This document shows positions 11,588 through 45,908 of a stretch of DNA of 64,000 nucleotides, piece after piece; within the stretch, counting starts at the first letter, position 1; every line of letters starts with the position of its first letter. The position numbers and the translations under genes are program-made. A model generated the notes under the pieces. It was not told the DNA's origin, made no database searches, and was given only the letters and a program-made list of their open reading frames with translations. Origin of the DNA: Sporosarcina sp. ANT_H38 (GTDB lineage: Bacteria; Bacillota; Bacilli; Bacillales_A; Planococcaceae); NCBI RefSeq assembly GCF_008369195.1, contig NZ_VOBC01000003.1:372001-436000 (forward strand), in the 5' to 3' direction.

Positions 11588-12057
11588 AACTAACACTTCC
11601 TTTTACTTATTGTTTAGTTCGTTGCACCTAGCCCCTCGAGTCGCTTCAGTCTTGCTGGTAAAGGCAAAGAACGCCTTTACCTTCAAGACTTCCAGCGCTT
11701 GTCGGGGCTGTACAGGCGCTTTCGCTTTTCATGTTGTCTAGGCTTCAGCGCCTAGCCCCTCGAGTCGCTTCAGCCTTGCTGGTAAAGGCAAGAACGCCTT
11801 TACCTTCAAGCCTTCCAGCGCTTGTCAGGGCTGTACAGGCGCTTTCGCTTTTCATGTTGTCTAGGCTTCAGCGCCTAGAGGCTAGGGTCATAAGTCAGTC
11901 CGACTAGGAAGGATTGAACTGCATCCTTCCCGGGCAAAGAGCGCCGCTTCGCCAGCCCGTCTTATGCCTGTCGCGGACCTATAGGATATAGGTCATGCAA
12001 CCGTCGCCACAGGAAGTGGCGACGGTTGCCTTTCCTTTATCCATGCGCTTTCGCTTT
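11588..12057. repeat. Hairpin-rich repeat region between ureF and ureG
   Basis: No gene is present. Two tandem copies of a unit of about 124 bp (11628-11751 and 11752-11874) begin with CCTAGCCCCTCGAGTCGC. Each contains GGTAAAGGC pairing with GCCTTTACC. Further perfect stems follow: GGAAGGAT/ATCCTTCC (11908-11931), GACCTATA/TATAGGTC (11976-11994), and a 14-bp stem at 11997-12010 with 12016-12029. GCGCTTTCGCTTTTCATG occurs three times, the last copy running into the ureF stop codon. The GC-rich composition contrasts with neighbouring AT-rich spacers. It resembles interspersed repeats I recall from Bacillaceae genomes, but I cannot name the family. Confidence 0.85.
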
Positions 12058-42743: not shown

Positions 42744-43361
42744 CTAATATGAAATTCCAACACGGAATCCGATGTTGTCTCCTTGCAATAGTTCACTGTA
42801 AGCAAAAGCAGCTGTGTCACCAACGGATATTTGTTTACCATCCCCTGGCAACAAGTCGCGCTCAGTTCTGTAGCCATCTACCGCAACACCGTCCGGCAAA
42901 TAAGTAGGACATACAATTGTCCATTCAAGTCCCGATAGACGAAGCATATCATACACTTTATGGTGTTCTTCCGCCGCAAAAGTCAGCCGACGATTTGTAT
43001 CTCCTGCTTCATAACGTAACTTTTCAGGATCAATCTTACTTTGCAAGATACCAGCTGTCCCAATTGTAACGATTCGGCCAACTTCTATGTCTTTCATTGC
43101 CTTTATCATATGTGGAATCGCTTCAGTCAATGTTGTCGTCTTGTCTGTACCGAGCGCACTAAACACAACGTCCATCCCGGCAATTGCAAGCGAAACTGTG
43201 ACTGCATTACGGACATCACCTTGGATAACAGTTAACCTATCATGTGGTGCCAATTTCTCAAGTGAACGGACAAGTACCGTCACTTCATGCCCTTCAGCAA
43301 GCGCGAGTTTTAGAACTTCCCCACCCACGCGGCCAGTTGCCCCAAACAATACCATTTTCAA
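42744..43361 (-). CDS. NAD(P)-binding NmrA/SDR-like protein
   Basis: 205 residues from TTG 43359-43361, eight bases after GGAG, giving the normal KMVLFGATGRVGGEV Rossmann start. The frame is open much further upstream, but that stretch is a DNA repeat, and the first codon there lies in a terminator. The dinucleotide loop is GATGRVGG; VIQGDVRNAVTV, VFSALGTDKTT and WTIVCPTYLPDG follow the atypical SDR (YwnB/NmrA) pattern. It probably binds NADPH as a reductase or redox sensor. The substrate is unknown. Confidence 0.8.
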   Translation of the reverse strand: MKMVLFGATGRVGGEVLKLALAEGHEVTVLVRSLEKLAPHDRLTVIQGDVRNAVTVSLAIAGMDVVFSALGTDKTTTLTEAIPHMIKAMKDIEVGRIVTIGTAGILQSKIDPEKLRYEAGDTNRRLTFAAEEHHKVYDMLRLSGLEWTIVCPTYLPDGVAVDGYRTERDLLPGDGKQISVGDTAAFAYSELLQGDNIGFRVGISY

Positions 43362-43407
43362 AGGAACCATCTCCATTCTTTCATCTCTTTTTACTGTAAC
43401 ATTTTTA

Positions 43408-43554
43408 TATGATCGGTCTGCATGCTTATTTGATTGGTCTCTCACTTTATATGATCGGTCTACATGCTTTTTTGATCGGTCACACACTCTATATGGCCGG
43501 TACTCATACTTATTTAATCGGTCGCACACTTTATATAATCGGTCTACATGAATC
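43408..43554. repeat. Seven-unit 21-bp direct repeat array
   Basis: The core GATCGGTC or a one-to-three base variant begins at 43411, 43432, 43453, 43474, 43495, 43516 and 43537, exactly 21 bp apart. Odd units continue with CTACATGCTT and TATA-like flanks; even units continue with CACACTTTA, making a 42-bp higher period. It lies 50 bp upstream of the NmrA-like start, on the promoter side. Spacing of two helical turns places all cores on one DNA face. Confidence 0.9.
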
Positions 43555-43576
43555 AAGCCTAGTCTAGCACATGAAA

Positions 43577-43603
43577 AAGGGTTGCTCCTGTGAGACAACC
43601 CTT
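43577..43603 (-). terminator. Terminator after the CoA-transferase gene
   Basis: AAGGGTTG (43577-43584) pairs with CAACCCTT (43596-43603), followed by T-rich sequence on the minus strand. It lies 12 bases after the stop. Confidence 0.8.
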
Positions 43604-43614
43604 CCTGTTAGTCA

Positions 43615-45132
43615 TTAATAAGTGAGTTCTTCTACCAGCTCAAGCATAGTGCCGTTCTTCGCTAAATTTGTATGCCACGAGAATGCCTTTTCCAAGACGT
43701 GTGGCGTATGACCGCCTCTTTCAAGCGCCTCTTCGTAATAGGCACGAAGTTGATCGCGATACATCGGATGCACACAACGCTCAATAATAAGTTCAACACG
43801 TTCCCTTGGAGCAAGTCCACGTAAATCTGCATAGCCTTGTTCTGTTACAATAACGTCGACGTCATGCTCTGTGTGGTCAACATGTGAAACGAACGGAACA
43901 ATACTTGAAATATTTCCACCCTTTGCAATTGATTTCGTAACAAAAATGGCAAGGCGTGCATTGCGGGCAAAATCACCTGAACCGCCGATACCGTTCATCA
44001 TTTTCGTTCCCGAAACATGCGTTGAATTGACATTTCCGTAGATATCCAATTCAAGTGCAGTATTGATGGAGATTAAGCCCAAACGACGGATAATTTCTGG
44101 ATGATTCGAAATTTCCTGCGGACGCATGATGAGCTTATCACGATACTTCTCAAAGTTATTAAATACGTGAGCCATCTTCTTTTCGGATAACGTAATTGAA
44201 GCACAAGAAGCAAAACAAACTTTCCCTGCATCGATCAAATCGAATACAGCATCCTGTAACACTTCTGAATACACTTCTAACTCCTCAAACTCGGAGTTAA
44301 TCATTCCATGAAGAACTGCATTAGCTACCGAACCAATTCCTGACTGCAATGGAGCAAGGCACTTAGTCAATCTGCCCGCCTGAACTTCGGTGCGTAAGAA
44401 CGCTAATAAATGCTCTGCCATGATTTCCGTTTCATGATCTGGTGCATCAATCGTCGATGGTGAGTCCAATTGATTCGTAAAGACGATTCCTTTCACTTTT
44501 GACACGTCGAACGGAATGCCAATTGTTCCAATCCTGTCATCCACTTTCATTAATTGAATCGGTGATCTTTCACCCTGCTTACCAGGATCATATATATCAT
44601 GCAGCCCCTCCAATTGTAGAGACTGTGCCATATTTATTTCAATAATGATCGACTTGGCATGTTGTGCAAACGTCAACGAGTTTCCAACAGACGTCGTTGG
44701 AATAATCATTCCATCTTCGGTAATTGAAACCGCTTCCAAAATTGCAAAGTCAATTGGCTCGATAACTTCCGCGCGAATGAGTTCAGCTGTATGCGACAAA
44801 TGATGATCCACAAATAGAAGTTCACCTTCATTAATCTTTTTCCTCATCGTCGGATCGGCTTGAAAAGGTAATCTTTTATGTACAATATTAGCTTCAGCAA
44901 ACAATCGATCAACATCAGACCCTAACGATGCACCCGTATAAACATTCACTTTAAATTGTTCTGTTTCTGCACGTTTTACCAATGCCAATGGAACCGCTTT
45001 CGCGTCACCAGCGCGTGTAAATCCGCTTAGCCCAAGTGTCATGCCATCTTTAATCCAAGACGCCGCTTCTTCTGGTGAGACAACGACGTCTCTTAATTGA
45101 ACGTTTTTAATTCGATCCATAAAGTTTTCCAT
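43615..45132 (-). CDS. Acetyl-CoA hydrolase/succinate CoA-transferase family protein
   Basis: 505 residues, the full length for Ach1/ScpC/Cat1-type enzymes. GLSGFTRAGDAKAVPLAL near residue 33, the CoA-binding LQSGIGSVANAVLHG with the expected catalytic glutamate downstream in ELEVYSEVLQDAV, and NGIGGSGDFARNARLAIFV are visible. It moves CoA between acetyl-CoA and a carboxylate such as succinate or acetate. The LytTR regulator gene lies 130 bp upstream on the same strand, which suggests linked control. Confidence 0.9.
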   Translation of the reverse strand: MENFMDRIKNVQLRDVVVSPEEAASWIKDGMTLGLSGFTRAGDAKAVPLALVKRAETEQFKVNVYTGASLGSDVDRLFAEANIVHKRLPFQADPTMRKKINEGELLFVDHHLSHTAELIRAEVIEPIDFAILEAVSITEDGMIIPTTSVGNSLTFAQHAKSIIIEINMAQSLQLEGLHDIYDPGKQGERSPIQLMKVDDRIGTIGIPFDVSKVKGIVFTNQLDSPSTIDAPDHETEIMAEHLLAFLRTEVQAGRLTKCLAPLQSGIGSVANAVLHGMINSEFEELEVYSEVLQDAVFDLIDAGKVCFASCASITLSEKKMAHVFNNFEKYRDKLIMRPQEISNHPEIIRRLGLISINTALELDIYGNVNSTHVSGTKMMNGIGGSGDFARNARLAIFVTKSIAKGGNISSIVPFVSHVDHTEHDVDVIVTEQGYADLRGLAPRERVELIIERCVHPMYRDQLRAYYEEALERGGHTPHVLEKAFSWHTNLAKNGTMLELVEELTY

Positions 45133-45263: not shown

Positions 45264-45908
45264 TTAAAACCCTAATAATTTGCGAAAGTAACTGGAATAC
45301 GATTGACTTACCGGAATTCGTGTTTCATTATTCATTTCCAGGACAAAAGTCGAATGCGAATCAGGATAAATCCCTTTAATATGATGGACATTAACAATAA
45401 ATGAACGGTGGCAACGGACAAATGACTCACGTGGCAATAAATACTCGAATTCTTGTAACGTGTTTTTATGAGTACCTAAAAATCCCTCTGCCACTACGTA
45501 CGTTTTTCTGTCATTCACTTCCACATACTTCACATCTGCGAAAGGCACAGGAATCCATCCATCATTTGTTTTAACTGTAACCACAGATTTCCCGTCTGTA
45601 TAAGCCGGGTAAATCGCGGTGACACAGCCCCCTAACAACTTACCATCGTAAAACGGAACAGCCATCCCGTGATAAGGGACACCAAATACATCGCGGTTAA
45701 TGAACTCGGATACCTTTTGTTTCTGGGAGATTGCCTTATATGCAATTGTCCCCTCTTTTACTAAATCACCCTGCCTAATTTTCAAATCAACCCGTTTACT
45801 AGGAAGATAATAGAGATACTCTTCTGTATTTGACACAGCAATCGAGACTTCATCTGAAAGCAATTCTCCAATAACATCTAATAATGAACTGAGGCTTAAA
45901 TTCTCCAA
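45264..45908 (-). CDS. LytTR-type DNA-binding regulator
   Basis: 214 residues. The C-terminal LytTR domain (about 110-212) has the family line VKYVEVNDRKTYVVAEGFLG, then LPRESFVRCHRSFIVNVHHI and RIPVSQSYSSYFRKLLGF. The N terminus (1-100) has no receiver domain; its strands (KVSEFINRDVFGVPYHG, GCVTAIYPAY) look like a small-molecule sensor of PAS type. It likely senses a metabolite and controls the adjacent CoA-transferase gene; that link is inference. Confidence 0.8.
   Translation of the reverse strand: MENLSLSSLLDVIGELLSDEVSIAVSNTEEYLYYLPSKRVDLKIRQGDLVKEGTIAYKAISQKQKVSEFINRDVFGVPYHGMAVPFYDGKLLGGCVTAIYPAYTDGKSVVTVKTNDGWIPVPFADVKYVEVNDRKTYVVAEGFLGTHKNTLQEFEYLLPRESFVRCHRSFIVNVHHIKGIYPDSHSTFVLEMNNETRIPVSQSYSSYFRKLLGF

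Follow-up and report, generated by a model that had tools for sequence, protein, structure and literature searches.

The array of seven 21-bp units at positions 43408..43554 of the window (the whole stretch of DNA analysed, 64 kb in length) may, as judged by sequence comparison, represent one copy of a dispersed, family-wide class of helically phased arrays that lie behind terminators and are putatively protein-binding; a probability of about one half is given to this reading. Arrays of this kind share a period, are dispersed in the genomes, follow terminators and keep their sites and orientation between species, with turnover of the spacers and parallel shifts of core and step. In the model proposed, an array would be an intergenic run of ∼11-bp cores set 20–21 bp apart, i.e. 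by two helix turns, with locus-specific spacers; it would lie just past an intrinsic terminator, with its core strand most often opposite to the terminated gene. If bound, such arrays would amount to a chromosome-organising element of a new kind, the partner protein of which changes fast, in soil bacteria that can be cultured.

The window array (+ strand) consists of the core TATGATCGGTC and a 10-nt spacer in each unit, and the spacers alternate to give a 42-bp super-unit, as found by Tandem Repeats Finder (TRF), core matching and lag counts. Units start at 43408, 43429, 43450, 43471, 43492, 43513 and 43534, a constant step of 21 bp, and units 1–7 match the core at 11, 9, 11, 10, 8, 9 and 10 of its 11 positions. 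TRF describes the array as a period of 42 with 3.5 copies (80% matches, score 194) or, alternatively, a period of 21 with 7 copies (score 95); this is the sole TRF entry of period 20–21 or 40–42 in the window. Over 126 nt there are 86 matches at lag 42 and 70 at lag 21, and the best value in 20 Markov-1 simulations (lags 15–63) is 61 matches. The preliminary description had read the region as seven cores at an exact 21-bp spacing, with alternating flanks that form a 42-bp super-repeat and with the spacing unchanged where the core has drifted. These points are borne out by the unit starts, the TRF periods and the lag counts, the last of them at the fifth unit, which has 8/11 core matches. A two-copy 123-bp tandem repeat (96% matches) is also present in the window, at 11627-11907; its period is unrelated to that of the 21-bp arrays.

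The array lies immediately past the terminator of the gene before it. This gene (43615..45132, − strand) encodes a 505-amino-acid protein of the acetyl-CoA hydrolase/transferase family, as assigned by the open reading frame, Pfam domains and orthologous loci, and its 3′ end adjoins the array in relatives. Its intrinsic terminator (43574..43601, − strand), read by eye, has a stem at 43601-43596 / 43584-43579 and a T-run at 43578-43574, and is aimed at the array; it is not in the list of the automated scan, as its loop is 11 and the loop limit of the scan is 3–8. Upstream of the CoA-transferase gene, an open reading frame at 45264-45908 (−) has by eye the look of a LytTR-type regulator. The downstream neighbour of the array is an NmrA-like / NAD(P)-binding oxidoreductase gene (42744..43376, − strand; 210 amino acids from the likely start), which displays NAD_binding_10 (1.4e-36) and NmrA (4.6e-10) domains and whose likely reading frame is 31 bp from the array end.

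The array was initially proposed to bind a regulator of this reductase cooperatively, and a search of orthologous sites in related genomes was suggested. The outcome of that search goes against a role specific to NmrA. Of the 68 genomes of the genus, 44 contain a match to the NmrA-like protein at E ≤ 1e-20; identity is 84–88% in six relatives, and the best named matches of the protein are in Sporosarcina, including S. psychrophila (86%). The gene order in genome G072 is CoA-transferase, array, a TauE-like gene (Pfam) and NmrA; G002 similarly has an array (at the contig end), a TauE-like gene of 235 amino acids and NmrA, and G027 has an array ∼0.8 kb upstream of NmrA, at a contig end. In G071, 32 detected units lie beside the CoA-transferase gene (92% identical), with NmrA ∼5 kb off and no unit of at least 9/11 in 1.5 kb on either side of it. 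G009 has the CoA-transferase gene followed by NmrA, with no unit of at least 9/11 there; a stretch there resembles a decayed array remnant by eye, the array being almost lost. Only in G078 among six close relatives is the array, of 5 units, directly upstream of NmrA and between it and the CoA-transferase gene, as it is in the own genome (G000). Unit number at the CoA-transferase site is 7 in G000, 32 in G071, 10 in G072 and 5 in G078. The array belongs with the CoA-transferase terminator, because it stays there in relatives while the position of NmrA varies. An operator array for the NmrA-like reductase would fit the placement immediately upstream of NmrA in G000 and G078, but the orthologous loci of G072, G002, G071 and G009 disagree with it and arrays elsewhere adjoin unrelated genes, and such an operator is considered highly improbable. 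To judge by these loci, the window array is not an NmrA control region. Protein binding is still preferred as a general mechanism; the tie to the reductase is given up. An array of this sort can pass for a promoter element and so lead to a wrong annotation of the gene beside it. A sigma-70 −10 element, to which TATGAT is similar, has been dropped as a candidate: other cores have TATGAG or TATCAG, and the sole promoter-like site listed is outside the array.

The arrays are found in many copies in the own genome and some of its relatives. With a strict pattern of two cores, TATGATCGGTC-N10-TATGATCGGTC, at most three mismatches and the reversed pattern as a control, the own genome contains 215 pairs (140 forward, 75 reverse) and no match to the control. 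Twenty-two of the 68 genus genomes have any match. Loads are 215 in G000, 207 in G072, 147 in G027, 133 in G078, 127 in G071 and 98 in G002, followed by 33 in G079, 22 in G017 and 9 in G009, with 0–3 in the remaining 59; the reversed control over all 68 gives a single match, in G014. A degenerate pair, TATSAKYRSTY at 21 bp, is found in 71 of the 261 family genomes and in 8 of 19 genera, and its reversed control in three genomes (6, 8 and 1 matches). The six and eight reversed matches are in G124 and G125 of genus g32, which perhaps have arrays with another core. Some genus genomes lack a match to either pattern, strict or degenerate, and this core, at least, is therefore dispensable.

The period is shared by arrays with other cores. 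From G073 and G034, which have one and no strict match, respectively, 400 kb near the ParB gene were taken regardless of arrays. TRF finds many arrays in these stretches, with a period of 20–21 or multiples thereof and about five core types (L369-L408), i.e. TTATGAGCGC, TTATCAGCGGTT/TTATCAGCACTT, AACTGTCAGGGC, TTGCACTC and AAACGTTTTCGCC; part of these array regions overlaps an open reading frame. A core-free lag scan of the same stretches displays enrichment at lags 20–21, 40–42 and 60–63, plus the codon lags 18, 36 and 54 in G073. Lags 20, 40, 41, 61 and 62, which are not favoured by coding repeats, served as the control: the 120 diverse loci (901,542 bp) contain 0, 1, 0, 0 and 0 such regions, respectively, and the 47 viral loci none. 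Lags 21 and 42 are frequent in both control sets (49 and 21; 16 and 18), in line with what coding repeats would produce, and the control loci had been preselected for one 21-spaced pair. In 30 loci drawn from the family-wide search, exact cores less than 70 bp apart are spaced by 20 (40 cases), 21 (55), 40–42 (15) and 61–63 (4), with one 21-bp pair per locus imposed by the search pattern itself; the top lag in these loci is 21, 42, 41, 40 or, at one locus, 39. A 42/84-bp array of the own genome (L231 5764-5917) is built on another core, GGACACTTC, and several core types may therefore coexist there. A 309-bp tandem duplication of 2.1 copies was noticed at L240 12434-13077, also in the own genome. 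The two-helix-turn spacing, not a link to a neighbour gene, looks like the common and evolving feature.

No further members were recognised in the viral contigs, the plasmid and phage records or the genome-contig loci listed. Among 47 viral contigs with a strict pair, a check for at least three units was positive in L181, L192, L219 and L222, and on reading none is of this array family; the same was found for L079, L120 and L159, the positives among the 120 genome-contig loci listed. The viral contig IMGVR_UViG_3300028595_000048 (L222 5100-5170) carries a four-unit 21-bp array, TTTGATCGGTCACAGTGGCAC, of unrelated sequence. The window array and a 26-unit array have no match in plasmid records, and the 26-unit array has none in phage records.

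Array structure was analysed in 93 arrays, consisting of 27 from G000, 40 from G071 and 26 from G072 (the last from 100 of 109 matches listed), all of them detected by core patterns, by which weaker arrays are missed, and from match lists of limited length. The spacer is 9–10 nt and the step 20–21 bp: 719 of the steps below 30 bp are of 21 bp and 329 of 20 bp, and 21 are of other lengths (seven of 19, five of 22, five of 23, two of 18, one of 25 and one of 28). The early suggestion that helical phasing is important is supported, in the form of spacing by whole helix turns, by this distribution and by the recurrence of the 20–21-bp period with other cores. The step distribution also bears on a coding repeat for a heptapeptide protein. 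Twenty-one bp equal seven codons and array open reading frames exist, but steps of 20 bp are common and a 164-amino-acid array frame, with 595 candidates, finds none at E 1e-5; this origin is the least probable of those considered.

Spacer identity is 0.32 between adjacent units, 0.62 between every second unit (lag 2) and 0.30 between arrays, and of the 79 arrays with six or more units, 71 have an even best spacer lag. As alternate spacers are alike, growth is mainly by pairs of units, and spacers would be amplified mostly in pairs of 41–42 bp. Arrays less than 20 kb apart have a spacer similarity of 0.661, against 0.58–0.60 beyond 50 kb (29 near pairs; permutation p 0.0004). Near arrays share spacers more, and local spreading therefore occurs.

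The position behind terminators is not peculiar to the window array. A terminator-like hairpin fires at the 3′ end of the array, within 150 bp, in 57 of 93 cases, where shuffles lead one to expect 7.2, and at the 5′ end in 39 of 93 (expected 10.8); one or both ends are so served in 77 of 93, and the median distance from T-run to array is 24 bp. Hairpins that read away from the array are also common (37/93 in the 3′ flank, 20/93 in the 5′ flank), a count that weighs against the proposed reading. By neighbour class, 43 arrays are between tandem genes that they oppose in strand, 16 between tandem genes whose strand they share, 26 between convergent and 7 between divergent genes, and one is without a 5′-side gene. 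When orthologous sites are merged, 62 sites remain, and opposite versus same strand in tandem positions is 27 to 12, a moderate bias (p 0.024). For the breakdown of terminators by gene class, the flank matching and the spacer and core pairs, flanks were taken with omission of open reading frames that run into the array. The flanking genes scanned are of housekeeping kinds and have no common theme. A Pfam scan of 20 proteins, i.e. 19 that flank own-genome arrays and the TauE-like one, yields unrelated families, and one protein without a family; among those that flank arrays are FtsZ, SpoIIGA, CTP synthase, pyrimidine nucleoside phosphorylase, lipoate ligase, a flotillin, an FtsH-like protease and chemotaxis receptors.

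As arrays adjoin terminators, they might act in a read-through transcript as an RNA element, such as an attenuator, a processing site or a terminator accessory. The core strand of the window array does fold somewhat better than its shuffles (z −2.09, 11 of 200 shuffles being as good). Over 28 arrays, however, no consistent RNA structure is found, with a mean z of −0.46 on the core strand (range −2.46 to +2.79) and +0.35 on the other strand (range −3.55 to +3.52); Rfam has no match in window positions 43000-44000, and the spacers diverge freely. An RNA element is accordingly given a very low probability.

Many arrays occupy the same sites in different species. When an orthologous site is defined by a shared flanking gene of at least 55% identity, 17 of the 27 own-genome arrays have a counterpart array in G071 and 11 of 27 have one in G072 (12 listed, 11 kept). 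Curated array pairs number 17 for G000 and G071, 11 for G000 and G072 and 12 for G071 and G072, and the relation to the 3′-side gene is kept in 39 of these 40. Spacer identity is 0.34–0.37 in orthologous pairs versus 0.29–0.30 in other pairs; core-to-core identity is 0.77–0.78 in both alike. The core of AG/GG type, by comparison, is found at matched sites in 0/11 arrays of G000 versus 10/11 of G072, in 0/12 of G071 versus 9/12 of G072, and in 1/17 of G000 versus 0/17 of G071. Arrays with 20-bp steps are 16/17 in G071 versus 6/17 in G000, and 11/12 in G071 versus 2/12 in G072. Core variant and step at matched sites track the genome, not the site.

Because core and step shift in parallel at many sites without sharing of spacers, a trans-acting binder is suggested, and this parallel shift may be taken as the main argument for function. 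A putative DNA-binding protein would occupy the cores side by side on one helix face and would set core and step in trans; unit number would be altered by tandem amplification and loss, and post-terminator space would be used since it contains neither promoters nor coding sequence. The role is envisaged as a general one, either in chromosome organisation or in the insulation of neighbouring transcription units. A partner of the ParB/Noc type has been dropped: 63 of the 68 genomes carry two ParB_N matches and the other five carry three, regardless of array load, and ParB-family gene number thus does not track the arrays.

The chief alternative is that the arrays are parasitic or neutral repeats that spread to new sites, expand and contract through slippage and unequal exchange and persist unbound in the harmless space behind terminators. 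A serious chance is given to it, although one below even. It is consistent with the patchy load in the genus (0–215 pairs), the variable unit number at the CoA-transferase site together with near-loss in G009, the locus-specific homogenised spacers shared between near neighbours and the mere 7 of 93 arrays in divergent-gene (promoter) spaces. In addition, similar repeats have been left open as to function, in the case of staphylococcal STAR (PMC3532100, available excerpt), or judged parasitic by their authors, in the case of BOX, RUP and SPRITE (PMC3049150, available excerpt). Slippage alone, however, fails to explain a single 20–21-bp period across several cores, nor does it account for conserved sites at which core and step change in parallel with no exchange of spacers. 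Geometry, conserved sites and parallel change of core and step offer a handle on the distinction between host-bound and parasitic repeats.

Among published repeats, STAR is the closest known kind, with two of three STAR features tested not found here. In the excerpt available, STAR elements are direct repeats interspersed in intergenic regions and built on a short conserved motif; the motif is GC-rich and of 14 bp, T(G/A/T)TGTTG(G/T)GGCCC(C/A), with at least 40 bp between motifs (PMC3532100). Their spacers resemble one another inside a locus but not from one locus to the next, with two types per locus in some strains, and the elements expand and contract, are abundant in some species and scarce in others, and occupy different loci in each species (PMC3532100). 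The present arrays are likewise intergenic direct repeats with locus-specific spacers that are homogenised within the locus (0.62 at lag 2 versus 0.30). They differ in the core TATGATCGGTC, which is not the 14-bp STAR motif, in the 20–21-bp step with a spacer of 9–10 nt instead of at least 40 bp between motifs, in spacers that mostly alternate and in the conservation of many sites and orientations between species; they also abut terminators, and their core differs between lineages. BOX, RUP and SPRITE of the pneumococcus are credited with extensive secondary structures, in the excerpt available (PMC3049150). The arrays resemble them as small dispersed repeats mostly limited to close relatives, and differ in that no consistent RNA structure was found in the 28 arrays or, by Rfam, in window positions 43000-44000. 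A-tract periodicity has been treated elsewhere (PMC3940949, available excerpt). Excerpts of the open-licence PMC literature contained no description recognised as one of these arrays.

Three other systems share single features with the arrays. REP/BIME elements, which are associated with RAYT transposases, have many copies, occur at the 3′ ends of genes and form hairpins; the arrays share copy number and position with them but are direct repeats, not hairpins. Mobility by a RAYT has been dropped, as the Y1 transposase domain PF01797, present in 51 of 68 genomes, is absent from the array-rich G000 and G071. Plasmid iterons and other phased protein-binding arrays consist of direct repeats spaced by about two helix turns, an arrangement made for side-by-side binding, and replication iterons are at an origin, beside an initiator gene. 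The spacing is the same here. Unlike iterons, however, there are many chromosomal arrays beside unrelated genes and not one origin, and the Pfam scan finds no replication initiator among the 19 flanking proteins. CRISPR arrays have unique spacers between their repeats, unlike the spacers here, which recur, mostly in every second unit. Bacillus Chi (AGCGG) has also been dropped, as the window core is without AGCGG.

A broader and more speculative proposal extends the protein-binding reading to a bacterial chromatin system that spans the family. The many post-terminator arrays of a genome would serve as phased landing strips; the specificity of the binder would drift, so that core and step change together with position and orientation kept, and several core systems would exist per genome, with enrichment near the origin. 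This proposal is regarded as doubtful. The dnaA gene, at C3:487,831, and the window array are ∼72 kb apart. G071 and G072 are the two genomes with a single main contig; with the terminus assumed to be opposite dnaA, raw counts place 30 of 40 arrays of G071 and 21 of 26 of G072 (from the matches listed) in the dnaA-proximal half, with p 0.002 for each. The G072 matches outside the 100 of 109 listed are beyond 4.59 Mb, likewise in the dnaA-proximal half; among the matches listed, none is between 2.41 and 3.88 Mb. The dif pattern was matched in G079 alone among six genomes. Orientation against the replication fork is seen in 29 of 40 arrays of G071 and 15 of 26 of G072, counts in which gene direction and replication direction are inseparable.
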